A DNA stretch of 64,000 nt from assembly GCA_004193545.1 (NCBI GenBank), contig RPGO01000026.1, forward strand, positions 1 through 64,000. Direction: 5' to 3'. A model generated the notes under the pieces. It ran no database searches, had not been told where the DNA came from, and saw only the letters and a program-made list of their open reading frames with translations. The number at the start of each line of letters is the position of its first letter. Position 1 is the stretch's first letter. Shown in pieces: positions 3,111 through 59,100 of this stretch. The stretch comes from Candidatus Argoarchaeum ethanivorans. GTDB taxonomy: Archaea > Halobacteriota > Methanosarcinia > Methanosarcinales > EX4572-44. The position numbers and the translations under genes were made by a program.

Positions 3111-3112
3111 AT

Positions 3113-38748: not shown

Positions 38749-38891
38749 AACGCTCGCGGGAGAAGAAGCGGCGTACAACCGCGTGATCAATGTCATATAG
38801 ACTCTATGCGCACCAACTATACCAGCCATGATAAGAACACTATGCACAGAGAACAATCTGGAATGAAACCGACCTGACAAAACAATATGAA

Positions 38892-39116
38892 ATGTTACCT
38901 CTTCTCATTGCATTAATACCAACAACAAATATACAGAATACAGCTAAAAAATCACTTATAGATCGAGTCAATGCGCCTGCCACGTTTGCTGCTTTCGTGG
39001 GTTTCGTGATCTCTGAAATTGGAACCTCCTTTTACCCGATAACCTACAACCACCTTATCAGCGTGTTTGTTGCAGTGTTTGTGTTTGTGCTTGTTGCGGT
39101 TTTTAACAAGCGGTAA
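38892..39116 (+). CDS. Possible small membrane protein
   Basis: A 74-residue frame with hydrophobic stretches (LPLLIALIPTT; FAAFVGFVISEIG; ISVFVAVFVFVLVAVF). No ribosome binding site is obvious, and I recognise no family. It may be the end of a lost gene. Confidence 0.4.
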   Translation: MLPLLIALIPTTNIQNTAKKSLIDRVNAPATFAAFVGFVISEIGTSFYPITYNHLISVFVAVFVFVLVAVFNKR

Positions 39117-39218
39117 CTGCTTCCTTATAGCCCGGCTGCAGAACTTAGTAACCGCGCACGATGCGGCACATAATGCGGCAATCCCATTTTTATGGAAATC
39201 CTTTTTAATATCAAAAAT

Positions 39219-39386
39219 GGAGCTATCTAAAAATCCGAGTGTTTTATCACCGCGGAGAGCGCCGAGTACGCAGAGTTTTAAGACTGTCCCAATTATTGCT
39301 TATGCTTTCTGGTGCCTTTGCGTTCTCCGTGTGCTCTGCGGTGAAATTTAAGGATTTAGCAATTTCACTAGAAAATTCGACTGTGC
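39219..39386. repeat. Dispersed repeat plus HD-gene 3' fragment (copy 2)
   Basis: Starts AAATGGAGCTATCTAAAAATC and contains CACCGCGGAGAGCGCCGAG, CTCTGCGGTGAAATTTAAGG and TAGCAATTTCACTAGAAAAT. It matches 19937-20086 in order, including about 45 bp of HD-gene coding sequence after the repeat proper, with the inner loop different. So a chromosomal segment was copied between the two places. Confidence 0.85.
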
Positions 39387-39526
39387 CATCAAAAATATAT
39401 CTATTATAGTCAAAAACCTTAGGTTTCTAACTTATCCTATCAATGTTAGAGCAGTTTGAATCATGATTTTCGTAAGCAGAATTATTATAAATTGAATAAC
39501 CATCTATTTATTTGTAAGGTTTGTTT

Positions 39527-39542
39527 CGTTCTTGACTATAAA
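39527..39542 (+). repeat. Left arm of a 16-bp inverted repeat flanking the giant gene
   Basis: CGTTCTTGACTATAAA here is the exact reverse complement of TTTATAGTCAAGAACG at 54439-54454. The arms lie outside both ends of the giant surface-protein gene, pointing inwards. Confidence 0.8.
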
Positions 39543-39571
39543 AGGTGCCAAGAAAATGAAATTTAAAGTTG

Positions 39572-39790
39572 TTATGAGGGAAGATTTAGAAGATGGGGAT
39601 ACAATGTGAGCTGCTCCATATTGCCCGGATGCCACTCCCACCCACCACTCGTTTCGTTGTACACGCCGTTTGCGATCACGTTGTTTCGCTCAATCACGTT
39701 TCCGGTGCTTCCGTTGGTCAGGTAGAATCCTGCCTCGACGTTGTCGTGCACCCGGTTGCAGGAGACGTTGTTTTTCCCCTCCCCCTCCAA
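39572..39790 (-). pseudogene. Remnant of a second beta-helix (NosD-like) gene
   Basis: The minus strand reads GKNNVSCNRVHDNVEAGFYL, TNGSTGNVIERNNVIANGVY and then leaves the pattern. These are parallel beta-helix rungs. It overlaps the 3' end of the giant gene in a different frame at the purine tract GGAGGGGGAGGGG, and cannot be its natural continuation because the giant protein already ends in membrane helices. I read it as the 3' part of a deleted neighbour. Confidence 0.65.
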
Positions 39791-42700
39791 ATCGCGCCGA
39801 CCGTGAGACCCACTGATACCGGTATCACAAACGGCAGCAGGTACGCCCCGATGCCTGCACAGAACGGTATTGCATATCCAGCGGATCCAAGCGAGAATAT
39901 GGCTGCGATAAAAACGAGAATCGAACCCGCCCCAACTAAAAGCGATTTTAATATCTTCGTTCGATCTCTTCTAATCAAGAGACTAACTGCCAATCCAATG
40001 CTGAACACGAGTAAAATGCCGTTTAATGCGATTTTCGAGAGATACACCAGTGGCGTTATCAAAGTCAATCTTGTGACTGTCCGGAGTCCATCGTTCGCTC
40101 TTAATGCATTGGCAATCGGCGGACTCGTTGCGTAATATGTGGAAACGAATGTTTCTCCAACCGGATTCGTCATGAGTACCTCATCCCTGAAATCTCGCAG
40201 CACGTCTATACGTCTGTCCAGAGGCGTTGCGTAGGTTGCGGTTGCAATGTAACAAGGTGATGGTGCTGCGCCTACTGTCCAAATCCACGTTTGCATGTTG
40301 GTTCCATTTGCATTTGTAACGATTGCTGACACGTTCCAGGTTCCAACCTTTGCACTCGTATTCGTGTACGATGCTGCCATCCCACTTACGTTCGGTTGAA
40401 CCTCCGTCCCATTTATCTGCCAGCTCACGTTTACGATTTGGTTGATTGTGACGTTAAATGTTTGAGTTGCACCTTCCGTATCGCGCACAGGCGAAGGAGG
40501 AGCGAAAGAAGTGATATTTGGCGATGACGGTGGTATCGTCACATTCCACACCCACGTCTGCATATCCGTGCCGTTTGCGTTTGACGCCACTGCGGAGACA
40601 TTGTTCTCACCTACGTGCTGAGCATGCAGCGTGCAACTGGCTTCCGTTACGCTTTCATTCTTAAATAGGAACGAATTGTTCAGATACCAGCTCACGTTTA
40701 CTGTTTGATTTACGGTAACGTTAAACATTCTCCAGTGACAGACTGCATCGTTAACAGGCGAAGGAGGAGCGAAAGAAGTGATATTTGGCGATGACGGTGG
40801 TATCGTCAAAGTAGTGAAGTGGTGTTCCACACTCTCATTTGAATTACCACTTGAATCCGTGCTATTCACTACGTAGTAGTAAATCGTTTCTGCGGATAAT
40901 CCAGTAAGAGTGATGCTGTGAAAAGTAACCAGTACTGAATCGTACTCTTGCGTCGTGTAAGTCCCTGACTCAGTACCATATTTGACCAAACTGTCTGAAT
41001 CTTCATCTGTTTCCCAGCTTATCACCGCCGAATTAGTTGTTATCCCGGTTGCCCGGACATTACTTATTACTGGTGGTTCGGCATCCAGCGGAGATGCGTC
41101 AAAGTATTCTGCACCGGAAGCAAGCGAAATCAAACTGTGACCACTCAGATCTGCATAGAAACCATAAACAATTACATGAATACCGGACATGTTTGTTAAC
41201 AAGGTTCTGCTCATCTCAATTTCATTCTCTCCTTCCGTTAATGTTTTATTCATTTCGAACTCATCAATCAACACATTTTCAGGGTCGTAAATCCACATCC
41301 TTAATAATCCTGAAATATTTCTATTTGCTTCGATATTAATTCCTAATCTTAAAGTTTCCCCGGAATAATATACTTCCTCATACAGGTTAGCTTCGAGTAC
41401 CTTGCTATGGTATCCGATGACATCGAAGGGATGAGCAAAGGATAGGTTTCCAAAGGTGTATTCAACGTAATAAGTTCCAGACCTCAGTTCCAGTAAGGTG
41501 AAATTAAGCGTTGTCGGACCGCTTATCGTATCATTGTATGCGAACTTTGGCGCTGTTAAGTTGAGCCTATCCGATTTGTTAACATTGATGTGTATCCTCA
41601 CATCCTCGCCTACATTGTACACGTCCCTGTCAGTATACAAACTTATCTCCGGATTCTCTTCGTAAATATACATCGAGTTAATGTACAGTGCCCTTCCGGA
41701 ATTCATGTAAACCGTGTACAGTATTTTATTGTCGCCAGTGAATGTGACTGGGATATTGAAAGTCAATGTTTTTGAGCCTGAACCAGTCAAATTGAAATTG
41801 GTTACATTATCGTATTCATTGAACTTCACCCTTGAATACAAGCTCAAATCAAGTTTGCATTTATTCTCTATCTCTAACGTGAATACAGCAGTTTCACCAT
41901 CCTCGTACATGTTCTTATCCAGCGATGCATCAACCGATATGTTCGCCCCTCGCACCAAGTAAGTGAATTCCTCTCTTTTCCCATCAAGCTCATAGATTCC
42001 TTTGTAACTCTTCTCCTCCAAATCATCGGGAATTATAAAGTTGAAGCTTATGTTTCCCACATCTCCTGCTCTAATCCACGTCCTATTCGTATCTTCAAAG
42101 TCTGGCATTTCTAATGCAAGTACAGCTTCTCCTTCGGATCCCCCAATATTTTTAACTTTGAACACAAAGGTAACGTCCTCTCCGGCGGTGAAATTCATCT
42201 CCTCCGGATAAATTGAAGTAATATTAAGTTCCGGCGGTGAAAGAATATTTATCGTCACATCCACTTCTTCAAATGGCGAAGTATATCGCAGCAAATGCGC
42301 TCCTTTTGTCAAGTTGAACGAGATGCTCTCGGTTATGTTTTCACCTTTTGGCACGAAGAAATGTTTTGTAATGTTTTGCTCTTCTGGTGAAGAGATAGAG
42401 AATGTAGCGTTAAATTCCGAATCTATTGCGCCCGTGTTATTTATTGTGAACGATATCTCTGCCTCACCTTCCAAATACGTCGGTTCTGGGGTGATATTTA
42501 TCTTTGCGCTCTCATCACAGATTATCCCCCTTTGTTTGGTTTCATTTACATCACCAGAAATAACAACCGTTATTGTCATGTCAATTGATGTGTTCATGGT
42601 GGTTTCCAATAGCTGTGATTCGCCCTCCGGAACTGTTATGTTCCATCTTTTGGAATCCAGGCTGACGTTTAATTCTGCGGTTATGTTCCCAATATTTTCA

Positions 42701-45700
42701 ATTAGAACGCCCACATCGAAGTCCTTTAGCCCAACAACATCCGGAGCGATAATGCTCGCATTTATTTCAGGCGATTCCACACCGATCGAATCCATTACTA
42801 CTACACCGTCCACAGTCCCTTCTAAAGTGAACGGTGCGTCTGCAGTGGTGTTTGTTGTGTAATAGCGAGTTTCATTTGCGGCAAGAGTAAATGAATCGTT
42901 GAATATTTCCACACTGTCTTTCTTTATTGAGAGATTGCAACCTACGGGGCTGCCAGCATGATTCTTTGCTTCTACGTAAATTAGCACCGTCTCGTTCGGC
43001 TTGTAAATCATCTTGTCGGTCTCCAACGTAAGAGAAGTGTTCTTCGGTGTGATGTAGAAGAAAGGGTCGATTATGTTGATTATTTGCGTTGTGTTTGAGT
43101 AGAGCGTTGTACTTAACTTCTGCTTGCCTGTTGCATCCTCAAACACGCTTGCTGGAACCTCAGTAACGATGTTTTTCGTCTCACCTTCCGCAGCAAGGTT
43201 TATCGTTATGTTTTTCTCCCACAGCACTTCTTTTGGCGGCAGCGGCATCACGAGTGGCAAACAATCCCCTCCTTTACTTACCCTTCCACTGCAATTGTAA
43301 GGAAGCGGTGTGTCTGCAAGTTCATCGCCGTCCAAATCCTCTCCATGATAATCGCTCCAGTAGTTACCACCGAGCCACGGTCCGCCGATTATATTACCGC
43401 CGTCAGCAAACGTTTTTGTTATGTTCCAGATATTATCATTATCGTCTGCGTAGGCGTTGATTGTATTGTCGAAGAGATTATCGTAAATAAGATTATAATC
43501 TGCATTACTATGCCCATAGCAACCGTAATTATTGGACATGATTCTATTGCTTACGACATTATTTTTATCTGAACCTGAGCAGAGATAAATACCCTTATCG
43601 CTATTTGAGCTTATGACATTTTTAGTTATTATATTCCCGTCCCCACCACAATAAACCCCAATACTGTTTGATTCCATCGTGTTGCTTATAAGTTCGTTGT
43701 TGGCGCTTGATCCTGTGATGTGGACACCACGAGAGTTTGACTCAAACCTGCTGTTTCTTATTGTATTGTTGTTTGAGTTACTGAGATAAATTCCATAATT
43801 GGAATGATTGGCTACTGCAACATTTTCAATTGTGACATTTTTGCATTTGTAGAGATTTATAATGCCGTAGTTCGTTGCTTTTACCTTTGAAGGCAGAACA
43901 GCAGTGAGGTTGCTTATTGTAGTTCCTTTTTTGGAGTAAAGCACTAAAATGCTGACGCCATTTACGGTGTTTGTAGCGTCAAAGTTCTGCGCAAGGTTCT
44001 TGTAGCCGTTGAAGTAGAAACCGTAAGCATCACCTGATATGGAAATGTTGTTGTTTCTGAATGTGTTGGGTTGGTCGGATATCTGTATACCCATTGCATC
44101 GCCAGAAAGAGATACTTTGTTCCCTTTCAAGACGCAGGAATAGCTGTATACGTAAATCCCATATTTACCACCGCTGTTTATAACAATGGAGTTGTTTATC
44201 ACCTCACTCTCTTTTGAATCCCTGAGATATATGGCGTTTTTGTCTGTTATTATCGTGTTGTTTTCAATGGTTGCATAATAGTCTCTACAGTAAATTTCAT
44301 AATTGCTATTGTTTTTAATAATATTATTGTCAATAGTAGTATTCCACGCATCAACATAAATTCCCCGTTCGTTGTTTTCAATCGTGTTGTTTTGTATGTG
44401 GGCTTTCATTGCCCAACCTCCTGCGCAGGGGTACACACCATATTTATTGTGGGTTATTTCATTATCAACAATATATGCTAACTGGGCATTGTGGGCGTAT
44501 ATTCCATTCTCAGTATTATTAGTTATTGTGCTATTTCTTAATTCATTTCTTGAACCCCATAGTTTGATTCCGTTTTCATTTGAAGACGCTGTGCTGTTCT
44601 CGATGACTACAACATTAGATTTGTACACGAAGAAACCGTAGTCGGAATGATTGACCACGGTGGCATTTTCTATGTTGATGTTCTCGCATTTGTACAGGTT
44701 TATCAATCCGTAATTAGTTACCCTGGTATTCTTCTTCGGCAGTGCAAAGGATAGGTTGCTAAATGACTCGTTCTTAGTGTTGTAGAGCACCAAAGCCTTG
44801 TATCCATTGAAAGTGTTGGACAAATCTATGTCCTGCCCTATGTAAATCACATCGCTGTATGTTCCGAAGTAAAGGGGATAAGACTTTGAAGTAACGGTGT
44901 TGTCTCTTAAAACGCTTCCATCTCGCTTGTAGAAGTAAATTCCCTCTTTGTCTGCATTTATCGTATTATTGAATATTTTGGCACTTCCGTCGTAGATGTA
45001 AATTCCTCTATCACTTGAAGAGATGGAATTGTTGCTTATTTCGCAGTTAGTCGATCCGTCAGCAAGTTTTATGCTTTTAACACCCAATATTTCACTGTTC
45101 AGTATCTTGTTTGCGCCGGAGTGGTAGAAATGGAGACCGTAGTCATTGTTTGCGGAGATATCGCAGTTGTCTATCCGGTTGTACGTGCTATAATAGATAT
45201 ATGCGCCATGCTTGCTGTTTGAAGAGATATTGCAGTTGTCTATTTGGTTATTCTTGCTTGAATCTTTTAGATACAGACCATGATTGGAGTTTGAAGAGAG
45301 GTTGCAGTTATGAATTTCGGTTCCACTTGCGTCTCGCATATAAACTCCGTAAGAGTTGGAGCTTAAGTTTGAATTAGAAATAGTGTTGTTGTCAGAATGC
45401 CACAGATGAATGCCGTATGAGTTGAATGTTCCAGAGATGTTTTCAACTGACGAGTTATACGTTTTTCGGAAGAAGACAGCCTCGCTGTTGTTTGTCAGGT
45501 TGTTCAGATTCTTCACTGTGATGTTCTCGCAGAGGATAGCAGCGAAATATCCTGCGTTCGCTGTTTCATCGTAAACCTTGTCCTTCTCGTTTACAAGATA
45601 ATATATCGGCTTGCCATTAACCGTATTTGAAGTATCAATGGAATGGTTGAAGTGTTTGTCATAGTCATGATGGTCGGCAAAAACACCGCCAAAATTGCGT

Positions 45701-48700
45701 TTGTTGTTGTTAATGCTGTTGTTGGATAATGTGTTGTAAGATGATGCAGAGATTGTAATACCGCTTCCTGAATTCGAGTTTATCGTGTTATTCTCCAAAA
45801 TGCTATCGCTCGTACTACCATAAAGATTTATACCGCCGTCGTTCGAGTACACGATATTCTTTGTCAATATATTGTTATTACCACCAATCGCAATTCCGTA
45901 ACCCGAGTTAAAACTCACATTATTACCCGATATATTATTGTTATGCGAAGGGCGCCAGTAGTATAAATGGATTCCCCTGTCGTTGTTTGAAATAACCGTA
46001 TTACTAATTATCTTATTGCTATTCGAGCTTGATAGAAAAATGCCAGTCTCCTTGTTTTTTTCTATACTGTTACCTTCTATGACATTGTTCGATGAGCCAT
46101 AAAGTTCAATTCCATGCCCTTGATTAGAAGTCAAATTATTGCTGATAATTCTGTTGTTATGGGATTTGCGCAAATCAACGCCTTTGTATTTATTATTTTT
46201 TATCACGTTGTTTTCTATGGCATTATTATTTGACGCATCGCCAAAAGAAATTCCATCGCTGTTTGAACTTATTGTGTTGTTTTCTATAGCATTATTTGAC
46301 GCATCGCGGAAAGAAATTCCATCGCTGTTTGAACTTATTGTGTTGTTTTCTATGGCATTATTATTGCTGTAATCATTTAGATAAATACCGCCATAAAGCG
46401 AATTAGAATGAACAGAGTTGTTTATTATCGTGTTGTTATTGCTGTGATCATTTAGATAAATACCAGAATGCGAGTTTGAATATACGGAGTTGTTTTTTAT
46501 TGTATTATTTGTGCATGAATCACGAAGATAAATGCCATCCTGCGAATTTTTGGTCATAGTGTTGTTGGTTAAGGAGTTGTTGCACGAGTAAGATTTCAAG
46601 TAGATGCCGTAGTAGTTGTTAGACGAGTTTATATCCATTAAGTTGGAAAAATCAGTTTGCACTAAAAGAATGCCATTATTTTTCTTTGTTGATGAGCCTT
46701 CTACTGTTATATTGTTTATGTCGGAGTGGTCGGCATTGCATAAGATTAACTCTGAAAGGTCTTCATCTGATAAGCTAACAGATGAATTGAAATATCTTAT
46801 CGGTCTGTCTCCGGAGCCGGTCGTGTTATCTATTTTGTTGTTGCAGTGCGAAACGGAAGTTGCGTGAATGAATAAGTCAAACTTGCTATTTTCCTTTGCT
46901 GTGTTATTTGTTAAGGTGTTGTTGCTCGAAGAAGACAGGGAGATGCCATGGTCGTCATTTGAGTTGGCGGTGTTGCTCGTTAAGGTATTGTTATTCGAGG
47001 AAGACAAGTAGATGCCGTGGTAATATTTGTTTGAATTAGCAGTGCTGTTCGTCAAGGTATTGTTATTCGAGGAAGACAAATAGATGCCGTGGTCATGGTT
47101 TGAGTTGGCGGTGTTGTTTGTTAAAGTGTTGTTGCTCGAAGAAGACAAGTAGATGCCGTATTCATTATTCGAGTTAGCAGTGCTGTTCGTTAAAGTGTTG
47201 CTGCTTGAAGAGGACAAACAGATGCCGTATTCATCATTTGAATTAGCAGTGCTGTTCGTTAAAGTGTTGTTATTCGATGATTTCAAATAGATGCCATGTT
47301 TGTCGTTTGAGTTAGCTATGTTGCTCGTTAAGGTGTTGTTGCTCGAAGAAGACAAGAGAATACCATGGTCGCATTTATTCCAATTTGCAATATTGCTCGT
47401 CAAGGTGTTGTTATTCGAATACTTTAAGGAGATGCCATATCGGTAGTTCGAGTTAGCGATATTGTCTGTTAAGGTGTTGTTATTCGATTGAAACAACACG
47501 ATTCCGTAATAATTATTTGTTATCAAATTATTCTCAATTATTGTGTCATTCGTATTGATCCACAAACCGGCAAGGTCTCCATTTATCCCCCAGGTGTAAC
47601 CGCACTCGTGTAGTTCAGAATCGTGCATCTCGAACTTCGCACCGGATTTCACTTGGAAGCAGTATTCATAATTTGTGTTCTTTGCAGTAATTTCGGAATC
47701 GGAGATGTGCATCTCTCCGCCATTTTGAACTTCAATGTGATACTGTCTGTCTTTGGTGCAATCCATGAATACTTGGGTATTAATCAAAGTGAGGTTCCCT
47801 GTTGAATTGATAATTAAATTGCTGCTTAAGATTTTTACTTCGTCTTTCCACACCGTTTCGTTTCCTATTATAATATCGCTTAATTTTACTACACTCGGAT
47901 TATATGTTTCGTTAAGTTCCTCTTCGGGTTCGGATGTGGGGGTAACATTAATAGGTGGGGATTGTACAGGCTCTTCTGGCGATGTGGTTAATTTGGTTGG
48001 TGGAGATTGTGAAGGCAAAGGCACAGGCTCTTTTATTACCGATTCATTACCATAACTTTCGTTGAACTCCTCTTTTGGAGATTGTGCGGGTTCGGGTTCA
48101 GGTTCAGGAGTGGGGGCGGGAGTAATGTTTGCAAGTGGCGATGCGGCACTGGCAGTAGCAAGAAAATTATATAGACTCATAGCAAGAGAGAATATAGCAG
48201 AAGATGACGACGAAGGCACCTCTTCTATTTGCGATTCTTCCTCTTCCGCTGTTGAACTGGTGTAGGATGCCAGTAGTTTTGCAGTAGCTTTCGCAGGTGC
48301 GAGTTTAGTTTCAGACGGCATGGATGTACGAACGATTTTGAGGTGTAACGTGCCGTTTACAATCTCCCCATCAAGGTTCGTTATATTTGTAAGGATGGAG
48401 ACATTCTCGTTCTTGAAATATATTTTCCTCTCGGTGTCAGAGGTCAAATCCGCATTCAAACCATTTACTTCGCATACCGCAGCCAACTCTATCTCTTTTC
48501 CTGTCTCTTTATCTTTGCATGTGACAAACAGATAATATGAGCCGTTTACCGACTGATCAGGAATTCCAAAGGCGAGTGTCTTGTTCGCAAGCGAAAGAGC
48601 CGTATCCTCAACTACATCCTCGTGCATCAATTTACCCTTCCAGTCAACGAGTTTGAAGGAGCAATTGAAAACAGTATCCACGCCGCCGACATTTGAGATA

Positions 48701-51700
48701 TTGAAACTTATGTTCCCTCCGGCAACAGCACCATCCTTATCAAATCCAATAATTAAATCCGAGCAGGGGATGAAGAAATTGTCCTTTTTTGTGGAGTTGT
48801 CGTAAGAGAGGTTAACGAAGACATCGTGTTTTCCGGCTGCGATGTCAGTTGGAATGGAAAGGCTCTCGTATTCTATTTCTCTTTTTTTGTCCGGGTTCAA
48901 AGAAACGAATTTGGAATCAAAGAAAGAGAGAGAAGGAATTGAGGTATTTACCCACGAATTCCAGACAGACGAGCCGGTGTTTGAGATGTTGAGAAGAAGG
49001 CTCATGTTTTGTCTGATACAATAAACCTCATCTGACCTGTTGAAACTCATTATTAGGCGATAAAATCTTGGTATTTCAAAGTATGTGGAGTTAGAGCCTA
49101 TTTTTTCGCCGTTCTCGTATGTTTCTGCGGTAACGATGTAAGTGCCGTATCCGGAATCAAAGGGCAGCGAGAAAGAAGGCGTTTTGCTTGTGGATTCATA
49201 AGCGCTGAGGTTTTCATCAAAACTGTCTTCGTAAATCTTCTTGTTGTCAGGGTCAAGCGTTCTAATAGTAACTGTAACATTGTGGCTGATTTTTTGGTTG
49301 TTCGTGAGGTTGAGCGAGACATAAACATCTTCACCTTTTGCATATTCTTTCTTCTCCGTTTCTATGCCGATGTCAACAGAAGGATTGAAAACCCTAAGTC
49401 CCTTATACGCATACATGCTATTATAGCGTGCTTCAAATCTAGCTGAGTCCAATACTTTCGTAGTATATGTGAACGTTTCCTCGCTATTGGCATCCACCGT
49501 TATTTCTCTATATTGATCATACTTATGCCAAAACCCATACGAGCAGCTAACATTCCTGGCTGTATCTCCATCGTTCTTAACGTGGTAGGTTGCTGTAACG
49601 TTGTTTCCACGAGGGAAATATTCCCCAGGAGTTGTTATCCAGAGAGATATTTCAGAACCTCGATAAATAAAACCACCTGGGGTCTTTGCATATTTACTCA
49701 CCTCAAATTGTTCTGCACCATGCACTCGCTGCACTTCTCCATAACTGTCGTTCACGAGCAGGTAGTCAACATGGTAAATACCGAGATTTGAAGGTACCGT
49801 GTAAACGAAATTAACTGTTTTTGTTCCGTAAGGCGGGATGGCGGAAGTCGTAGCATCCACAGAATCTATAGCTTCATTGCCCACAAACACTTCAAATTCA
49901 ACTTTATCTGCAATTAAATCTATACAACTTGTTATATTTATTGGAATATTTATGAAATCGCCAGAGCTATAATTTTGCAATTCTTTCGGTTCTTTCGCCC
50001 ATGAAATTATGTCTCTGAGCAAGTTTTCCCCATCTTTCGTGGCTTGATTGTGCCCGTAAGCCCAATCGGTGTATGCTGTGCTTACGATCACCGTTCCGTT
50101 GCCGTATTCATACATCAACATCGCAGGCATTCCGTTCTTCGTTCTCGTGAGTAAAATGGTTGCATTTTCCGGATAAGAGGTGAAGTAGCCATCAACGACG
50201 AGATTAAGGGTGGTAGAATCCTGCCCTGACAGTATTGGATGATAATTGCTTATGCCGACTGAACGATGTTGACAGCTCTGGTCTTCTGCCCAGCCATAAC
50301 CACACCAATCCCCTGGTACAGCATCGAATTCGTAGCCGTGCTGCTGTGAAAAGACGATTAGCGTGCCACCATCACTCACATAATTTTCGAGTTTTGAGTT
50401 GAAAGAAGGTAACGAGTCAATACCGAAGAAGCCGCCACTTGGAATTATTAAAATCGGATAATCATTTAATTCGTCTATAGGAATATCAATGTCTACCAAA
50501 GTGATGGATTCGCCCAATTCGACCAAAAGATTTGAACACTCTCTAAAGAAACCATTCAAAAGAATTGGAATTTGTGAATTGGATTTATAATCAAATGATG
50601 AGTCTGTGCTTGCGGAATAACTAAAAGTTGCGACATCGAAGTTATCATCGGGATTGTCATATATTTTTCTAATTTTTTTTACCAGGTCTATCTTATCATC
50701 AAAATCACCATCTGCAGCTTCTTTTATAAGGTCTTCAAGTTCATCAAGATCTTTCTCTGCTTTTTCAGTCAGCTTCACCGGCTTCCCTTTTTTAAATTTA
50801 CTTCTACATTTATATCCATCTTTTCTGCCGTTGCTTTTATATTCTTCTTTATTCCATTCGGTCATAAGGTCTGCATAAGCTTTTCCCAAACCTGCTGCAG
50901 CCATCTCATCCATTGAAGTGGGTGTACCAATAGGACCAGTAGCAAGTGTCCCCGGAATGCTTGTATACAGTGCCCAAGCTGCCTGGCTAGCCGTCATACT
51001 TCCATCTTTTACCAATTCACCGAGTCTTTTCAAATTGTCCGGTGTGACATGACCTGCTGCCAGATTTTTAAATATCCTTCCACGCTCTTGTCCCAGTTCA
51101 AATACCCGTTCAAATGCAGCTGCATAGTCTTTAACACTGCTACAGAAAGCATATATCGATGTTCCGGCAATACCAATCACGGCTACGATAGCTATAATTA
51201 TAAATATAGAGTCCCCAAAAGGGTCAACAAAATTAACAGGATTGTTATCAGCATACACATACGGGGAAATATCCACTCTATTTTTCTGATCCTCGCTTAA
51301 AAATCTCCCGATTTTCGCATCATAATACCTTGCCCTGTAATAGTAGAGTCCGGTTTCCCTGTCATATTCCCTACCTGTAAAAGTGTAAGGATTAATCACA
51401 TCTCCAATCGTTTCCATAACTCCAAAGGCATCATATTTGTACTGCTCTACAATATTGCCAGAAGAATTGATCAGCGAGGTAACGCTGCCTGTTCCATCAT
51501 ATAAATAGAATAGCTCCGTGTCATCTCTAATCATGTTGACAGGTTCGTCCAAACCTGAACCATGTATATATTTTGCCTTTGTATTCCCTTCTTCGTCAAG
51601 CTCCATCAACATATCCAAAAAGTCGTATACGAAGTATGTTGTGTTATTGCTGACAGCTTTGGATACTCTGTTTCTCCATGGACCTGGAGAATAGCCATAA

Positions 51701-54366
51701 GTTACTTTCGTTCCATCAGTGGTTATTGCCTTTACTATCCGATCCCCTAAACCATACTCGTATCTGGTGGTACCATTCGGGCTAACTGCAATTATGAGAT
51801 TCCCGTTTTTATCATAAGTGTAATTCGTAGTCCCGTCTGCTGTAAGTCTGTCATTCTCATCATAAGTGTAATCCACCGTCAAAGTGTCTTTTTTCATTGT
51901 CAAACGATTCCCCATTCCATCATAAGTATACTCAACGGTGTTTCCATCCGGACACTTTACTTCAATCAATCTGTTCATATCGTCATATTCATAATATGTG
52001 TTTTCTCCATCGGAATTCGTCATAGAAAGCCTATTCCCAAAGGCATCATAGGCATAAGAATAACTTGAAATGATTTCTCCATCTATCTTTGAGTTTGTGA
52101 GTTTCAGAAGCCTATCAGCGCCATCATAGGCATAAGTGGTCAGAAAAGTATCGGAACATTCTTCCCTTATTCTTCTACCAGCGCCATCATATTGATATGA
52201 TATAACAGTACCAGAGGGGTCCTCGATCCTCATCAGTCGATTTGCTTTGTCATATTCATATCCTGTCACATTGCCATCCGGATCAATCATGGCTATGCGA
52301 TTGCCACTTTCGTCATAAGTATACGATACTGTCTTGGAGAACGCTCCGTAGTCAGTGGTTTCAGACACAACGCGATTCGAGGCATCATAAGTGTAGCTTA
52401 TCTTAACATCGTCATTCTCTTTGGATAAAAAGTTGCCATTTTCATCGTACGTGTATTTTGTTGTGTTCCCATAGGCAGTGATCGCTATCAACCGATCTAA
52501 TTTATCATAGCTATAGGTAGCAATATTACCATTTTTATCTTTAATCTTGATTATATTTCCCTCTTTATCATAGGTGTATTTCTCGGTGTATCCAAGTGGA
52601 TCGGTTGAAGAAATCACTCTGCCCAACGCATCGTACTTATAGGAATTATCTCTGCCTTCAGGATTAGTAACTTTTACCAACTTCCCTTTTTCATAATCAA
52701 AGTGTATTTCATCTCCTGAAGCACCAGTAGTTGAATCGGAGGAATATTTGGTTTCGTGCCCATTAGAATCAATCATGCTGGTTAAAGTGCCAGTGGCATC
52801 ATAGCTATACGTTGTCTCGTTATAATTCCCATCAATAGTTTTAATAACCCGATCATTATCATCGTATTGGGATTCAAAGGAATTATTATTGGCATCGCAT
52901 ATTCCGATCCTTCGCCCCACAAGGTCATAAGTAAATCTTGTGGTATTTCCTACCGGGTATTTTATCTCAATCATATTTCCATGAGAATCGTAAGAATGTT
53001 CTGTCAGAAATCCTCTAAAATCTGTGATGCCGGAGACATAACCAAAGGTATAATTCAGATAGGTACTATTTCCATTTGGATCGGTAATATTAATCACATT
53101 GCCCCTATCATCATACTCAAAATAAGTTGTGAAGCCTCTTTTATCTGTGGTGCTTGTAGCTAAAAACATATTTTTTTCAGCAAGATGTGCCCAGCTAATC
53201 GACATCGAGTTATTTAAGGGGTCAATGATCTTGATAGTGTTGCCATGCGTATCGTAATCATACCTGTGAGTGTTGCAATTGGCATCTGTGAAACTCAGCA
53301 TATCCATATTGCTATCCCATTCCATTTTTGTAGTTCCACCTGATGGGTCAGTGATTTTTATCGGATTGCCTTTTGAATTGAGTTCCAGTTTAGTAGTGTA
53401 CCCCTGTCCATCTGTTATACGAACAACATCTGTCGCATAGCTGAAGCTATAAACCGGGATGGGGTGATACGTAATATTGGCACCGGGAGCGGTCTGCTTT
53501 GTCAGTTTAATTTTCTCTACCTTGCCGCCGCTGTAATAAGTAAATATGAGCTTTGCTCTATTCAGATCAAGCTTGCTTTCAAGCTTGTGATTGGGACAGT
53601 ATTCATAAAGCGTTGATTTCCCCATCGCATCAGTTACTTTAACAAGGTCTGCAACCTCATACTCATAATTAATCTCTCTTCCAAGCGGGTCTGCAACGCT
53701 ACTAATCCTACCACGCAGGTTGTAATTGAGATTCAAAAATAGACCGGAATCATCGGATATGCGTGTAAGTCTCCCAAATATATTATACTCAAAATTCAAG
53801 TGATTATCATTTTTGTCAGTAATATTAATTATCTTACCATTTGAGCCGAAGTTATATTTCGATCCATCTCTGAGCCAGAGGACAAAAGAACCATCCGGAT
53901 TTTCGGTTAGTTTCGAGTGTATTCCGGGTGGTGCAGTATAATTGTTTCCCATGGCAGGAGGGAATGTGTGCCCTGAACCATCTCTATCAAAGTATGTTAC
54001 AGAACCATCATCATTTTCCACAAGGTGTATATTGTAGTTGTGTGTCCAGCCGAAACCGAAAGGACCATGCGTTCCACTACTGTGGCTGTTATATGCCCTG
54101 ATGATTTCCAAGTCAAATCCGCGTGCTTTTATTGAAATGTCTTTTTCCGGGAGGTATAAATTGCCGTTTGCGATGTTGACCATACCACCAGCAGCGTAGT
54201 AATACCATGGTTCGTAGCCGGTATTACCTGTGTTTGGTGTAGCCTCACTTGAAGATGCACCATCTTTTTTATTCTCCGCCGTAACAGCGCCCGCGAAGAG
54301 CGAGCAGAGCATTATCGCTATGATGAGTAGCGATACCAATTTTATTTTTAGTTCAGGCTTCTTCAT
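39718..54366 (-). CDS. Giant secreted RHS / right-handed beta-helix surface protein (about 4,880 aa)
   Basis: Start chosen at ATG 54366: it follows AGAGGAT and gives a signal peptide (LVSLLIIAIMLCSLFAGAVT); the open frame to 54651 lacks homology. Domain order: RHS/YD repeats (about 40-1050) ending with the core YTFTGREYDRETGLYYYRAR to NPVNFVDPFG; a membrane-like segment (IFIIIAIVAVIGIAGTSIYA) and helical region; a glutamine-amidotransferase-like fold (about 1290-1375, YPILIIPSGGFFGIDS); CARDB/Ig-like domains; a Pro/Glu linker (about 2080-2160); right-handed beta-helix of NosD-type rungs (about 2270-3690, 'NNTLTNSTANSN'); more Ig-like domains; FN3 (about 4430-4520); two PKD-like repeats; CFI-box C-terminal domain (CYIATATYATPLDRRIDVLR) with three membrane helices. 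RHS shells elsewhere encapsulate a C-terminal toxin; here a further 3,800 residues follow. Likely a cell-surface adhesin, matrix or contact protein (inference). Confidence 0.9.
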   Translation of the reverse strand: MKKPELKIKLVSLLIIAIMLCSLFAGAVTAENKKDGASSSEATPNTGNTGYEPWYYYAAGGMVNIANGNLYLPEKDISIKARGFDLEIIRAYNSHSSGTHGPFGFGWTHNYNIHLVENDDGSVTYFDRDGSGHTFPPAMGNNYTAPPGIHSKLTENPDGSFVLWLRDGSKYNFGSNGKIINITDKNDNHLNFEYNIFGRLTRISDDSGLFLNLNYNLRGRISSVADPLGREINYEYEVADLVKVTDAMGKSTLYEYCPNHKLESKLDLNRAKLIFTYYSGGKVEKIKLTKQTAPGANITYHPIPVYSFSYATDVVRITDGQGYTTKLELNSKGNPIKITDPSGGTTKMEWDSNMDMLSFTDANCNTHRYDYDTHGNTIKIIDPLNNSMSISWAHLAEKNMFLATSTTDKRGFTTYFEYDDRGNVINITDPNGNSTYLNYTFGYVSGITDFRGFLTEHSYDSHGNMIEIKYPVGNTTRFTYDLVGRRIGICDANNNSFESQYDDNDRVIKTIDGNYNETTYSYDATGTLTSMIDSNGHETKYSSDSTTGASGDEIHFDYEKGKLVKVTNPEGRDNSYKYDALGRVISSTDPLGYTEKYTYDKEGNIIKIKDKNGNIATYSYDKLDRLIAITAYGNTTKYTYDENGNFLSKENDDVKISYTYDASNRVVSETTDYGAFSKTVSYTYDESGNRIAMIDPDGNVTGYEYDKANRLMRIEDPSGTVISYQYDGAGRRIREECSDTFLTTYAYDGADRLLKLTNSKIDGEIISSYSYAYDAFGNRLSMTNSDGENTYYEYDDMNRLIEVKCPDGNTVEYTYDGMGNRLTMKKDTLTVDYTYDENDRLTADGTTNYTYDKNGNLIIAVSPNGTTRYEYGLGDRIVKAITTDGTKVTYGYSPGPWRNRVSKAVSNNTTYFVYDFLDMLMELDEEGNTKAKYIHGSGLDEPVNMIRDDTELFYLYDGTGSVTSLINSSGNIVEQYKYDAFGVMETIGDVINPYTFTGREYDRETGLYYYRARYYDAKIGRFLSEDQKNRVDISPYVYADNNPVNFVDPFGDSIFIIIAIVAVIGIAGTSIYAFCSSVKDYAAAFERVFELGQERGRIFKNLAAGHVTPDNLKRLGELVKDGSMTASQAAWALYTSIPGTLATGPIGTPTSMDEMAAAGLGKAYADLMTEWNKEEYKSNGRKDGYKCRSKFKKGKPVKLTEKAEKDLDELEDLIKEAADGDFDDKIDLVKKIRKIYDNPDDNFDVATFSYSASTDSSFDYKSNSQIPILLNGFFRECSNLLVELGESITLVDIDIPIDELNDYPILIIPSGGFFGIDSLPSFNSKLENYVSDGGTLIVFSQQHGYEFDAVPGDWCGYGWAEDQSCQHRSVGISNYHPILSGQDSTTLNLVVDGYFTSYPENATILLTRTKNGMPAMLMYEYGNGTVIVSTAYTDWAYGHNQATKDGENLLRDIISWAKEPKELQNYSSGDFINIPINITSCIDLIADKVEFEVFVGNEAIDSVDATTSAIPPYGTKTVNFVYTVPSNLGIYHVDYLLVNDSYGEVQRVHGAEQFEVSKYAKTPGGFIYRGSEISLWITTPGEYFPRGNNVTATYHVKNDGDTARNVSCSYGFWHKYDQYREITVDANSEETFTYTTKVLDSARFEARYNSMYAYKGLRVFNPSVDIGIETEKKEYAKGEDVYVSLNLTNNQKISHNVTVTIRTLDPDNKKIYEDSFDENLSAYESTSKTPSFSLPFDSGYGTYIVTAETYENGEKIGSNSTYFEIPRFYRLIMSFNRSDEVYCIRQNMSLLLNISNTGSSVWNSWVNTSIPSLSFFDSKFVSLNPDKKREIEYESLSIPTDIAAGKHDVFVNLSYDNSTKKDNFFIPCSDLIIGFDKDGAVAGGNISFNISNVGGVDTVFNCSFKLVDWKGKLMHEDVVEDTALSLANKTLAFGIPDQSVNGSYYLFVTCKDKETGKEIELAAVCEVNGLNADLTSDTERKIYFKNENVSILTNITNLDGEIVNGTLHLKIVRTSMPSETKLAPAKATAKLLASYTSSTAEEEESQIEEVPSSSSSAIFSLAMSLYNFLATASAASPLANITPAPTPEPEPEPAQSPKEEFNESYGNESVIKEPVPLPSQSPPTKLTTSPEEPVQSPPINVTPTSEPEEELNETYNPSVVKLSDIIIGNETVWKDEVKILSSNLIINSTGNLTLINTQVFMDCTKDRQYHIEVQNGGEMHISDSEITAKNTNYEYCFQVKSGAKFEMHDSELHECGYTWGINGDLAGLWINTNDTIIENNLITNNYYGIVLFQSNNNTLTDNIANSNYRYGISLKYSNNNTLTSNIANWNKCDHGILLSSSSNNTLTSNIANSNDKHGIYLKSSNNNTLTNSTANSNDEYGICLSSSSSNTLTNSTANSNNEYGIYLSSSSNNTLTNNTANSNHDHGIYLSSSNNNTLTNSTANSNKYYHGIYLSSSNNNTLTSNTANSNDDHGISLSSSSNNTLTNNTAKENSKFDLFIHATSVSHCNNKIDNTTGSGDRPIRYFNSSVSLSDEDLSELILCNADHSDINNITVEGSSTKKNNGILLVQTDFSNLMDINSSNNYYGIYLKSYSCNNSLTNNTMTKNSQDGIYLRDSCTNNTIKNNSVYSNSHSGIYLNDHSNNNTIINNSVHSNSLYGGIYLNDYSNNNAIENNTISSNSDGISFRDASNNAIENNTISSNSDGISFGDASNNNAIENNVIKNNKYKGVDLRKSHNNRIISNNLTSNQGHGIELYGSSNNVIEGNSIEKNKETGIFLSSSNSNKIISNTVISNNDRGIHLYYWRPSHNNNISGNNVSFNSGYGIAIGGNNNILTKNIVYSNDGGINLYGSTSDSILENNTINSNSGSGITISASSYNTLSNNSINNNKRNFGGVFADHHDYDKHFNHSIDTSNTVNGKPIYYLVNEKDKVYDETANAGYFAAILCENITVKNLNNLTNNSEAVFFRKTYNSSVENISGTFNSYGIHLWHSDNNTISNSNLSSNSYGVYMRDASGTEIHNCNLSSNSNHGLYLKDSSKNNQIDNCNISSNSKHGAYIYYSTYNRIDNCDISANNDYGLHFYHSGANKILNSEILGVKSIKLADGSTNCEISNNSISSSDRGIYIYDGSAKIFNNTINADKEGIYFYKRDGSVLRDNTVTSKSYPLYFGTYSDVIYIGQDIDLSNTFNGYKALVLYNTKNESFSNLSFALPKKNTRVTNYGLINLYKCENINIENATVVNHSDYGFFVYKSNVVVIENSTASSNENGIKLWGSRNELRNSTITNNTENGIYAHNAQLAYIVDNEITHNKYGVYPCAGGWAMKAHIQNNTIENNERGIYVDAWNTTIDNNIIKNNSNYEIYCRDYYATIENNTIITDKNAIYLRDSKESEVINNSIVINSGGKYGIYVYSYSCVLKGNKVSLSGDAMGIQISDQPNTFRNNNISISGDAYGFYFNGYKNLAQNFDATNTVNGVSILVLYSKKGTTISNLTAVLPSKVKATNYGIINLYKCKNVTIENVAVANHSNYGIYLSNSNNNTIRNSRFESNSRGVHITGSSANNELISNTMESNSIGVYCGGDGNIITKNVISSNSDKGIYLCSGSDKNNVVSNRIMSNNYGCYGHSNADYNLIYDNLFDNTINAYADDNDNIWNITKTFADGGNIIGGPWLGGNYWSDYHGEDLDGDELADTPLPYNCSGRVSKGGDCLPLVMPLPPKEVLWEKNITINLAAEGETKNIVTEVPASVFEDATGKQKLSTTLYSNTTQIINIIDPFFYITPKNTSLTLETDKMIYKPNETVLIYVEAKNHAGSPVGCNLSIKKDSVEIFNDSFTLAANETRYYTTNTTADAPFTLEGTVDGVVVMDSIGVESPEINASIIAPDVVGLKDFDVGVLIENIGNITAELNVSLDSKRWNITVPEGESQLLETTMNTSIDMTITVVISGDVNETKQRGIICDESAKINITPEPTYLEGEAEISFTINNTGAIDSEFNATFSISSPEEQNITKHFFVPKGENITESISFNLTKGAHLLRYTSPFEEVDVTINILSPPELNITSIYPEEMNFTAGEDVTFVFKVKNIGGSEGEAVLALEMPDFEDTNRTWIRAGDVGNISFNFIIPDDLEEKSYKGIYELDGKREEFTYLVRGANISVDASLDKNMYEDGETAVFTLEIENKCKLDLSLYSRVKFNEYDNVTNFNLTGSGSKTLTFNIPVTFTGDNKILYTVYMNSGRALYINSMYIYEENPEISLYTDRDVYNVGEDVRIHINVNKSDRLNLTAPKFAYNDTISGPTTLNFTLLELRSGTYYVEYTFGNLSFAHPFDVIGYHSKVLEANLYEEVYYSGETLRLGINIEANRNISGLLRMWIYDPENVLIDEFEMNKTLTEGENEIEMSRTLLTNMSGIHVIVYGFYADLSGHSLISLASGAEYFDASPLDAEPPVISNVRATGITTNSAVISWETDEDSDSLVKYGTESGTYTTQEYDSVLVTFHSITLTGLSAETIYYYVVNSTDSSGNSNESVEHHFTTLTIPPSSPNITSFAPPSPVNDAVCHWRMFNVTVNQTVNVSWYLNNSFLFKNESVTEASCTLHAQHVGENNVSAVASNANGTDMQTWVWNVTIPPSSPNITSFAPPSPVRDTEGATQTFNVTINQIVNVSWQINGTEVQPNVSGMAASYTNTSAKVGTWNVSAIVTNANGTNMQTWIWTVGAAPSPCYIATATYATPLDRRIDVLRDFRDEVLMTNPVGETFVSTYYATSPPIANALRANDGLRTVTRLTLITPLVYLSKIALNGILLVFSIGLAVSLLIRRDRTKILKSLLVGAGSILVFIAAIFSLGSAGYAIPFCAGIGAYLLPFVIPVSVGLTVGAIWRGRGKTTSPATGCTTTSRQDST
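46890..47490 (-). repeat. Tandem 66-75-bp repeats inside the beta-helix
   Basis: About eight near-identical units with recurring GTGTTGTT(A/G)(T/C)TCGA(G/A)GAAGACAA(G/A)TAGATGCCGT on the plus strand, encoding rungs of 22-25 residues such as HGIYLSSSNNNTLTNSTANS. DNA-level identity is high enough for unit gain and loss by recombination. Confidence 0.85.
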
Positions 54367-54409
54367 TCTTCTTATCCTCTTTGAAGTAAGATAAAAATTA
54401 AAGCATAAT

Positions 54410-54420
54410 AATATATAAAA
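54410..54420 (-). promoter_or_regulatory. TATA-box candidate of the giant gene
   Basis: On the minus strand TTTTATATATT lies about 45 bp upstream of the ATG at 54366, with a ribosome binding site AGAGGAT at about 54374-54380. Position and sequence fit an archaeal promoter with a short leader. Confidence 0.5.
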
Positions 54421-54438
54421 CTTCCGATTTTTGCATGA

Positions 54439-54454
54439 TTTATAGTCAAGAACG
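54439..54454 (-). repeat. Right arm of the 16-bp inverted repeat flanking the giant gene
   Basis: TTTATAGTCAAGAACG, exact reverse complement of 39527-39542. It lies just upstream of the giant gene's TATA-like box. Confidence 0.8.
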
Positions 54455-54478
54455 TAACTTTTATAACTAATCAGCTCT

Positions 54479-55094
54479 TTGCCTATATTCATGACAAGAC
54501 CTGAATCAATCACCATTGTGCGACACATGAGTGTTGAAGAACTAACCAAAAGAATAAAATCGATAGAAGGCACGATCTCTAATTCAAGCAACAAAGCTTC
54601 ATCGCCGCTTCCAATGGACACCACCGGGAAAGTCGATGCTGACCTTGACACCAGGCTTCTTGACGCACGATTTATGGATTTTATGAAGCTGCCGCAGGTT
54701 CTGGCGGTATTTTTAAGATTCGCTAATCATCTAACGTTGCAAGGAGTTTTTTATCAAGCACGACTTTATCGAGGTTAAGCAACCCCAAAGGTAGTATGGT
54801 GTGGCAAACTCGAGGGCGGTACAGCATTATTTCCCATTTCTACTTTGAGAGAAGTTTTTAAATCAAAGCCCGCGCTCTTCAAGCAAATTCTAATGTCTGC
54901 TGGTTTTGACCGGGTATTTGAACAGGACCAATATTTCGTGCAGAAGAACACATGACACTCCGCAAAGCATCTAAACGAGCCACCTCAATTGACATCGAAG
55001 CAAGCTTTTGCAGATCATAATGATGTGATGAACATCCTTGAACAATGTTAATGCAATAATACTATCATGGAGTTAACGATCCAAGAACACTACA
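54479..55094. other. Debris upstream of the IS630 remnant
   Basis: No intact gene. At 54491 the plus strand reads MTRPESITIVRHMSVEELTK then RIKSIEG, like the start of an IS630-family transposase, but then diverges (LLDARFMDFMKLPQVLAVFL). At about 54830-54955 another frame reads [20 protein letters not shown] and [15 protein letters not shown], which I cannot assign. It seems to be several gene pieces joined together. Confidence 0.45.
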
Positions 55095-55230
55095 AAATTA
55101 CGAGCGAATACTTTTGGATTTTATGCATTAAACGGAAACTCAGTTATCGACTTTAAGGAAAACTCGAAAAAGGAATCGATTTGTGAATTCTTTGGTGAAA
55201 TAAGGTCCGGAAACCCTGGAAAGACCATTG
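55095..55230 (+). pseudogene. IS630-family transposase, fragment left of the IS5 insertion
   Basis: Reads ANTFGFYALNGNSVIDFKEN, SKKESICEFFGEIRSGNPGK and TI, the middle of an IS630 (Tc1/mariner-like) transposase. It is cut at 55230 by an IS5-family element. With the insert and one target copy removed, codons join in frame to the fragment at 56397 (GKTI-VIILDNFSSHRAKD). Confidence 0.85.
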
Positions 55231-56390
55231 AGAATTTCTATTAACCCCCCACCAAACTATTTAGATTAATTTATATATTCTCAAAACATATTTCATACTA
55301 TGTCATCCTTCACTGCTTTTGCACTTCGAGAAGAATATAAACGGCTCGCACTTATTGGAGACAAGCTCTCAGAGGTTGAATCCCTCATAGACTGGGAGCC
55401 ATTTCGTCCAATAATCGACGAAATGTACAACAACCATACAGAGTTGGGTGGAAGACCAAACAATGATGCAATCGTCATGCTCAAAATGATTGTACTTCAG
55501 CAGTGGCATGGTTTATCCGACCTTGAAATAGAAAAACAGGCTACCGATAGAATTTCCTTCAGGAAATTCCTTGGTTTTCCAAAAAACATTCCGGACCGTT
55601 CCACTATTTGGAATTTTAAAAACAGAATCGCAAAAACCGGAAAAGACTCTGCAATATGGGGTGAATTACAAAGACAATTTTATGAAAAAGGTCTGAAAAT
55701 TAAGAAAGGAATGATACAAGATGCAACCTTCATTCAATCCGATCCCGGACATGCAAAGGCAGATACACCACGGGGTGATGAAGCAAAAACACGAAGGAGT
55801 AAGGATGGTACGTGGTCTAAGAAAAGCGGCAAATCGTATTACGGATACAAGTTGCACACAATAATTGATGCGGATTACCAATTGATTCGAAGAATAAAAA
55901 CAACAACAGCATCTGTTCATGATAATCAGGTTGATCTGTCAATGAAAGGTGAAGTGGTTTATAGGGACAAAGGTTACTTTGGGGCGCATCCGAATGGATA
56001 TAATGCAACTATGCAAAGAGGTGTGAGAGGACATCCAATAGGCATAAGGGATGTACTTAGAAACAAACGAATCAATCACACAAGAGCAAAGTGTGAACGG
56101 ATTTATGCTGTTGTGAAAACTGTGTTTGGGTCCGGGAGGGTAAAAGTTACCACAGTGGCAAGAACAGGGGTTAAAATGATGTTTACTGCTATGGATTATA
56201 ATTTGTATCAGTTGTGCACATTTAAAAAGAAAGGCATCATACAATGATTAGCGGTAGCTATCATTAAATATGGAAAAAATTGAGGAATATGAAATTAAAT
56301 AAACCTAAAATGGGAAATAAAGGGCAAAATTATGTCAAAGAAAGGGATTTGTGGGATTGAAGTAGAAAAATTGAAGTTAAAAGGAATTCT
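55231..56390 (+). mobile_element. IS5-family insertion sequence, 1,160 bp, target duplication CCATTG
   Basis: Ends are imperfect inverted repeats: AGAATTTCTATTAACC on the left and AGAATTCCTTTTAAC on the right (reverse complement). CCATTG is present directly outside both ends (55225-55230 and 56391-56396). It carries one complete transposase gene. It sits in the catalytic region of an IS630 transposase gene, whose frame is restored exactly when it is removed. Confidence 0.9.
55300..56247 (+). CDS. IS5-family transposase
   Basis: A 315-residue DDE transposase, apparently intact. The N-terminal domain has FRPIIDEMYNNHTELGGRPN and HGLSDLEIEKQATDRISFRK with FLGFPKNIPDRSTIWNFKNR. The catalytic Asp residues are in MIQDATFIQSDPG and VVYRDKGYFG; the Glu is in HTRAKCERIYAVVKTVFG. 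This is the best candidate for an active transposon in the window. Confidence 0.95.
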   Translation: MSSFTAFALREEYKRLALIGDKLSEVESLIDWEPFRPIIDEMYNNHTELGGRPNNDAIVMLKMIVLQQWHGLSDLEIEKQATDRISFRKFLGFPKNIPDRSTIWNFKNRIAKTGKDSAIWGELQRQFYEKGLKIKKGMIQDATFIQSDPGHAKADTPRGDEAKTRRSKDGTWSKKSGKSYYGYKLHTIIDADYQLIRRIKTTTASVHDNQVDLSMKGEVVYRDKGYFGAHPNGYNATMQRGVRGHPIGIRDVLRNKRINHTRAKCERIYAVVKTVFGSGRVKVTTVARTGVKMMFTAMDYNLYQLCTFKKKGIIQ

Positions 56391-56396
56391 CCATTG

Positions 56397-56692
56397 TTAT
56401 TATTCTTGATAATTTTAGTTCGCATAGGGCAAAAGATACTACAAAGTTTACTGAAGAAAACGGGATTGTATTGGTATTTTTGCCTCCATATTCTCCGGAT
56501 TTGAATCCAATTGAATTCATCTGGAAAAGCATCAAGAAAGTCATTTCACGCGAGTTTATTGTAGATTTAAATCACATGAAAGAGATAATCATTGATAAGT
56601 TTCGGAAATATTCATCACAGATCAGCTTTGCGAAGGGGTGGATTGAAAAGTTTATTGATGAGGGACATAAGTTAGAAATATTAGGTTCGTAA
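56397..56692 (+). pseudogene. IS630-family transposase, fragment right of the IS5 insertion
   Basis: Reads IILDNFSSHRAKDTTKFTEE, NGIVLVFLPPYSPDLNPIEF and IWKSIKKVIS to the natural stop. It contains the second catalytic Asp (LDNF) and the PYSPDLNPIE motif with the third acidic residue. It is the right half of the gene split by the IS5 element. Confidence 0.9.
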
Positions 56693-56746
56693 CTATAATC
56701 TCTGGCTTATTACAAGTCAGATTTTCCAGGTTCGAGTAATCTCTGT

Positions 56747-58273: not shown

Positions 58274-58578
58274 CCCTCCTTGAATTGCTATCGCACTCGA
58301 TTGCTAGCGCAATCGAGAATTACTGGTTACTTTCTGCAAAGCGCAGCTTTGCAGTGCTTCTCGTAATTAAGAGTTGTTTTCTGCACTTGATTGCTATCGC
58401 AATCAAGAGTCAAAGGTTATTTATATCTCTGCACAACGAAGTTGTGCAGTGCTTCTCGTAATTAAGAGTTATTTCTGTACACAGAGTGTGCAATAAATAG
58501 AGATATGATAAGACATAAATCTTTTGTTTGGAACTTTGAAACAAAGCTGTGATAGAACGTTGTAAAAACAGATACGGT
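58274..58578. other. Intergenic hairpin-element cluster between leuA and rimI
   Basis: No gene. It contains at least four family hairpins: stems CTCGATTGC, CTGCAAAGC, CTTGATTGC and CTGCACAAC, with TAGC, GCA, TATC and GAA loops. The sentence GTGCTTCTCGTAATTAAGAG appears twice (about 58352 and 58458), so elements here have been duplicated in tandem. Confidence 0.8.
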
Positions 58579-59022: not shown

Positions 59023-59100
59023 AAAATCTTGGTTTAAAATCTACTGCTGCGGTAGGTGTTATACTTTGTGGGTGAGCAACTGTACTCCTCGACTTCTGCA

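Follow-up and report, generated by a model that had tools for sequence, protein, structure and literature searches.

A giant archaeal RHS protein built on a conserved modular scaffold carries a hypervariable internal segment

RHS cages are familiar from secretion machines, on which they form C-terminal toxin capsules, and from animals, where they serve as adhesion receptors. What, then, might be the role of an RHS shell that forms the front of a giant archaeal protein with a putative membrane anchor at its other end? This question was raised by a gene within 64,000 nucleotides of DNA from Candidatus Argoarchaeum ethanivorans (assembly GCA_004193545.1, contig RPGO01000026.1, positions 1 to 64,000 of the forward strand; this whole stretch is referred to here as the window). 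An initial annotation had read positions 39718-54366, without giving a strand, as one frame joining an RHS shell to an amidotransferase-like fold, immunoglobulin-like (Ig) domains, a beta-helix and a CFI-box anchor. We confirmed this architecture on the minus strand, but the two features that proved most informative, a conserved PGxDxPDD junction and a hypervariable segment, had been missed. We propose, with evenly balanced confidence, that the protein is a Sec-secreted, membrane-anchored member of an unnamed modular family which would display a stalk-mounted RHS cage at the cell surface; that this cage acts as an effector is what we infer.

The gene is a single uninterrupted minus-strand frame that spans 39718-54651 from stop to start (4,977 amino acids with a GTG start). 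Translation probably begins at the ATG at 54366, for a product of 4,882 amino acids; this start is preferred because of a purine-rich stretch upstream (AGAGGAT) and because it opens a signal peptide common to relatives (MKKPELKIKLVSLLIIAIMLCSLFAGAVTAEN, recognized by hydropathy and alignment and also present in the loci L119 and L122). Protein coordinates are counted from this ATG, and those of all features are collected in Table 1. Searches against Pfam and NCBIfam matched DUF6531, RHS repeats, Rhs_assc_core, MG2, NosD/Beta_helix, the FN3-like N-terminal domain of purple acid phosphatases and CFI_box_CTERM. The RHS profiles PF05593 and TIGR03696 scored 260 bits and 77.2 bits (cut-off for the latter, 32.5), and the RHS part matched solved Rhs proteins (best E value, 2.5e-59) and teneurin-like proteins as well. 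This protein is the sole RHS-core match in the draft genome (1.99 Mb, 82% complete, 46 contigs). Its NosD/beta-helix region scored 520 bits; the NosD equivalog TIGR04247 reached 207 bits, under its cut-off of 300, and the helix has only its fold in common with the copper maturation protein. At the C terminus, CFI_box_CTERM scored 79.7 bits (cut-off, 40) and is followed by further transmembrane-like helices.

The amidotransferase-like (GATase-like) domain had no convincing relative in the Protein Data Bank by sequence profiles and no Pfam model at cut-off. An AlphaFold2 model from an alignment of 23 sequences (pLDDT, 83.5; pTM, 0.79) nevertheless matched GH42 beta-galactosidase (Foldseek E value, 5.8e-11), whose trimerization domain has a similar fold, and the class-I GATase 2a9v (target TM score, 0.72), which bears out the fold named in the initial annotation. 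An invariant QQHG sits where the nucleophile Cys would be at the elbow, a position inferred from alignment. A structural or binding role is therefore more likely than amidotransferase chemistry, and we rejected an active amidotransferase.

With this domain as the query, a scan of a genome collection, in which the matched genomes were mostly drafts, yielded 26 loci, distributed over Methanophagales and other members of ANME-1 (a group of anaerobic methanotrophic archaea), Hydrothermarchaeota, Methanosarcinaceae, Nitrospirota, Deltaproteobacteria, Thermoflexia, Paenibacillus, Elusimicrobia and others. Within the ANME-1 family, 5 of 51 genomes carried this domain, and a scan of viral contigs with the scaffold returned no relatives. 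The scaffold runs from the GATase-like domain through an MG2/Ig block, an optional insert and a second Ig block to a B domain. A beta-helix occupies the insert position in the window protein, L122, L123 and L094, and a stretch that looks propeller-like by eye does so in Methanosarcinaceae; no helix homology was detectable in the insert of L119 and L081. What precedes the scaffold is exchangeable. RHS front ends occur in the window protein, L122, L119, L106 and L093, while other members carry a transglutaminase (L076, L088), an M23 peptidase (L089), Amidase_6 (L104), Amidase_3 (L105), a zinc-phospholipase C (L090; L085 below cut-off), a lipase (L096) or a thioredoxin (L120); others begin with unassigned hydrophobic or Cys-rich regions. 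The C termini vary too, with a CFI-box in the window protein and a choice-of-anchor U in L119. A 3,299-residue member from Paenibacillus ginsengarvi (L092) has malectin domains and many carboxypeptidase-regulatory-like repeats in mid-scaffold.

Between front module and scaffold, PGxDxPDDxxxV was found in 30 of 31 archaeal and bacterial members, which include close relatives and thus amount to fewer than 31 independent trials, and in 4.6% of shuffled upstream regions. The window version reads IYDNPDDNFDV. The window protein has all the features by which we propose to define the family, namely the PGxDxPDD junction, the GATase-like domain and the MG/Ig block. Scaffold and junction motif characterize a domain family that has no above-threshold model in the copies of Pfam and NCBIfam searched. 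The open-licence literature searched contained no description of either, which is weak evidence of absence, and nothing was found in it that dealt with the CFI-box or with RHS combined with dockerin in ANME. Earlier work has described archaeal mosaic Ig proteins and polymorphic toxins (PMC8416519, PMC3482391); what is new here is the scaffold family and its junction motif.

Could the giant frame be an artefact of assembly or binning? The genome is a draft, the beta-helix region contains tandem repeats, and the GC content rises from ∼0.41 to 0.48 near 41.06 kb, where the B domain meets the FN3/CFI-box portion (0.479, against 0.38-0.42 in the remainder of the gene); this is the sole join without a copy in independent genomes. 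However, four joins (RHS to GATase-like, GATase-like to Ig, Ig to helix and helix to Ig) each recur in one frame in independent genomes. L122, from an ANME-1-family genome, has RHS, GATase-like domain, Ig, linker and helix in one frame at 49-73% identity, and RHS is joined to the GATase-like domain also in L119, L106 and L093. A fusion near 47-51 kb, named beforehand as what would overturn the initial annotation, is thus excluded. Mis-binning was likewise rejected: one same-genus genome has the adjacent LeuA-like gene at 97% identity, and in another the two flanks are in synteny. We consider an artefact highly improbable.

The same comparisons qualify the description of the protein as a chimaera, which is apt in evolutionary terms, since the front end, the insert in the middle and the anchor have all been exchanged in relatives, but not in the sense of a one-off, given the identical order in L122. 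They also bear on whether freely recombining surface proteins might have come together by neutral domain accretion, in a combination without dedicated function whose hypervariable segment is an unconstrained linker. A patchy distribution, the GC change at the anchor and the mosaic surface proteins known in Methanosarcinales (PMC8416519) would fit such a history. Conservation of the order in another archaeal order, the intact 15-kb frame and the retention of the junction motif in both archaea and bacteria do not, and we regard it as rather improbable.

The segment between RHS core and junction motif is hypervariable. In RHS members the second protease Asp (DPxG) marks the end of the core, and from there to the motif we counted 185 residues in the window protein, 285 in L122, 222 in L119, 199 in L106 and 186 in L093. 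The flanks are conserved among four archaeal RHS members (51-73% identity over the last 200 RHS residues and 55-65% at the start of the scaffold). Between the window protein and L122, identity falls from 70% to 27-30% at residue 1051 and is back at 72-82% by residue 1301. Aligned with the segments of L122, L119 and L106, the window segment gave z values of -0.4, -0.6 and 0.0 relative to shuffled sequences, and most pairs were no better than shuffled. Conserved flanks around mostly unrelated segments match the swapped-cargo pattern that defines the C termini of Rhs toxins, here placed internally.

At the upstream boundary of this segment, Asp1026 and Asp1048 are invariant in eight aligned RHS sequences, with a spacing of 22. 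The pair that the initial annotation had proposed to look for is thus present, although the DPxG-x18-DPxG pattern retains both Asp residues with a degenerate first motif (DQKN) and with Asp at P1. In Tse5 the pair is D1141/D1164 (spacing, 23) and the cut falls four residues past the second Asp (PMC10684867), and in Rhs1 the catalytic Asp is located in the second motif (PMC8636562). By analogy, a cut in the window protein would fall after residue ∼1052; whether the site is active is uncertain because of the DQKN motif and the Asp at P1.

How might these parts work together? The conserved scaffold (junction motif, GATase-fold domain and MG/Ig blocks) would display an exchangeable N-terminal module, which in the window protein would be an RHS cage followed by a hypervariable, cargo-like segment of ∼185 residues. 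After export, the shell would fold outside the cell and keep the segment inside or at its mouth. Ig domains and beta-helix would form a stalk, in which the ∼1,550 helix residues would span roughly 30 nm if each coil takes ∼23 residues; the CFI-box and the terminal helices would anchor it. On contact, the RHS aspartyl protease may cut at the predicted site and free the segment, of which the PDD junction would be the second boundary. Encapsulation, cleavage and an effector action on neighbouring cells are thus putative steps.

A substantial alternative, to which we assign a less than even probability, is a teneurin-like adhesin for cell contact or matrix, in which barrel and helix, as rigid modules for binding and spacing, would keep archaeal consortia together and the segment would be a partner-recognition region or a loose spacer. 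The teneurin-like structural matches are consistent with it, as are the adhesin-like anchor, Ig blocks and beta-helix and the occurrence of close relatives in ANME-1, consortium-forming archaea that encode many dockerin/cohesin proteins (PMC9012536). It is further favoured by the lack of a toxin domain and of an immunity gene. The retained protease pair, the replacement of the whole segment between two fixed boundaries and the occurrence of enzymes in this slot in other family members instead favour a displayed cage. We count on the same side the insertion described below and the sizes involved: the shells of characterized Rhs toxins enclose ∼16 kDa, and the window segment amounts to ∼20 kDa. 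An apparent relation of shell length to cargo length was dropped, as the sequences were too few and L041 did not fit. A surface-tethered shell, as suggested in the initial annotation, is supported by the sequence, which does not decide between contact, matrix and toxin delivery.

Several further observations weigh against the displayed, cargo-bearing cage. No known toxin domain matched the segment of any RHS member, and the inserted block that carries the gene (see below) holds no immunity-like gene and, beyond a transposase, no other convincing open reading frame; a toxin action of the segment would thus be conjectural. Not all segments are unrelated, those of L119 and L106 aligning with a z value of 10 and those of the window protein and L093 with 2.5. 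The internal membrane-like segment of the initial annotation corresponds to the hydrophobic stretch in Table 1, but the segments are only partly hydrophobic, and since a strongly hydrophobic stretch occurs in three of five, a membrane-spanning cargo was rejected as a general rule. The AlphaFold2 model of the RHS part (pTM, 0.42) was too weak to place the segment, and the degenerate first motif and the P1 Asp count here as well.

Comparison with known systems places the displayed cage between toxin capsules and adhesion receptors. The polymorphic toxins Rhs1/Tre23, RhsA and Tse5 share the DUF6531 plug, the YD shell, the core, the Asp pair and a hypervariable segment after the conserved shell. 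In the window protein, however, this segment is internal, with ∼3,650 residues and an anchor after it; a signal peptide takes the place of PAAR or type VI secretion system parts, and the N-terminal PVxxxxGE cleavage signature is absent. A classical C-terminal Rhs toxin was rejected, since the C terminus is the CFI-box anchor. Teneurins and teneurin-like proteins, too, are long surface proteins that are tethered and bear an RHS barrel, but they have a single N-terminal membrane anchor, whereas the window barrel is N-terminal and its anchor C-terminal, and the EGF or NHL domains that precede their barrel were not found by Pfam. VARTIG and archaeal alpha-2-macroglobulin-like proteins (PMC8416519) are likewise large secreted Ig/MG proteins with swapped parts; VARTIG varies at the C terminus, and the window family at the N terminus. 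The CxEQ thioester motif is absent from the giant protein, which has an MG2 domain only, and we rejected an alpha-2-macroglobulin trap.

Within the family, the transglutaminase giants of Methanosarcinaceae (L076, L077, L078, L088) share the junction motif, GATase-like domain, Ig blocks and B domain but differ in the transglutaminase front, the propeller-like middle and a B domain encoded separately. In L076, L077 and L078 we observed a conserved two-gene unit, in which a transglutaminase/GATase-like/Ig protein of 3,300-3,655 residues adjoins a gene of ∼320 codons for the B domain and a PGF-CTERM-like tail; the window has both partners fused. Taken across archaea and bacteria, such proteins might form a polymorphic surface-effector system of reversed polarity, with interchangeable N-terminal effectors on an anchored GATase-fold/MG scaffold, PGxDxPDD as a docking or processing junction and, in the RHS branch, a cage with swappable in-chain cargo between two conserved boundaries; we offer this generalization tentatively and with some doubt. 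A secreted, anchored cage would offer a testable way of learning how archaea living in tight consortia recognize, or attack, their neighbours, and the occurrence of the family in archaea and several bacterial phyla may allow many "hypothetical" giant proteins to be sorted by scaffold and motif.

Table 1. Positions of the giant gene, its parts and the surrounding insertion in the window
Feature	Position (nt)	Strand	Basis or remark
Whole gene, 4,882 aa	39718..54366	-	likely ATG start 54366
Signal peptide, aa 1-34	54265..54366	-	hydropathy; kept in L119, L122
DUF6531 + RHS/YD repeats + RHS core, to aa 1051	51214..54366	-	Pfam/NCBIfam, structure matches
Protease Asp pair, aa 1026 and aa 1048	51289-51291 and 51223-51225	-	alignment
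Hypervariable cargo-like segment, aa 1052-1236	50659..51213	-	identity drop vs L122, L119, L106; no family match
Hydrophobic stretch	aa 1053-1071, inside hypervariable segment	-	
Conserved junction motif IYDNPDDNFDVA, aa 1235-1246	50629..50664	-	in 30/31 members
GATase-fold domain, aa 1266-1480 (fold from about aa 1240), nucleophile Cys absent	49927..50571	-	model and fold matches
First Ig/MG2 block, aa ~1480-2030	48277..49929	-	Pfam, relatives
Pro-rich linker, aa ~2040-2160	47887..48249	-	sequence; common to L122
NosD-type parallel beta-helix, aa ~2156-3710	43237..47901	-	profiles; likewise L122, L123, L094
Second Ig/MG block, aa ~3714-4330	41377..43227	-	55-76% identical in L081, L119, L123
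B domain, aa 4330-4435	41062..41379	-	separate PGF-CTERM-tailed gene in Methanosarcinaceae
FN3-like domain	40807..41085	-	Pur_ac_phosph_N and fn3 matches
Two tandem Ig-like repeats	40267..40809	-	sequence; second ORF of L123
CFI-box-CTERM anchor + terminal hydrophobic helices	39721..40260	-	profile, hydropathy
Inserted block, absent from same-genus genome G018	39641..56729	.	flanks separated by about 600 nt on L133
Transposase ORF, IS5-like by eye, inside inserted block	55300..56247	+	

The anchor may have been recruited from a neighbouring gene, as suggested by a separate gene downstream on the ANME-1 contig of L123, which bears the Ig and CFI-box part, and by the deviating GC content of that part in the window. 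The 1,997-residue frame of L123 itself ends in a duplicated dockerin-like repeat, read by eye, with no Pfam call at an E value of ≤1. The source genome encodes a second CFI-box protein (L079, G000:C40:30893-31093; 211 residues), which scores over the cut-off and is 58% identical to the CFI-box of the giant protein.

The giant gene lies on an insertion. On the same-genus contig L133, the window flanks 38855-39640 and 56730-59066 are about 600 bases apart, and the 17.1-kb block between them in the window, which carries the giant gene and transposase sequences, cuts a hicB-like gene (window 39593-39640). Since the same-genus genome has both flanks without the block, the presence of the gene varies at strain level and is most simply explained by acquisition. 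In the five other genomes of the host family searched, of which all but one (at 94%) are incomplete, a query with the GATase-like region found nothing. L133 keeps a HicB/HicA-like pair between the flanks, as read by eye. Positions 56300-56710, which separate the IS5-like transposase from the insert's right edge, hold a fragment resembling the C-terminal portion of an IS630-type transposase; transposon debris thus bounds the block on this side.
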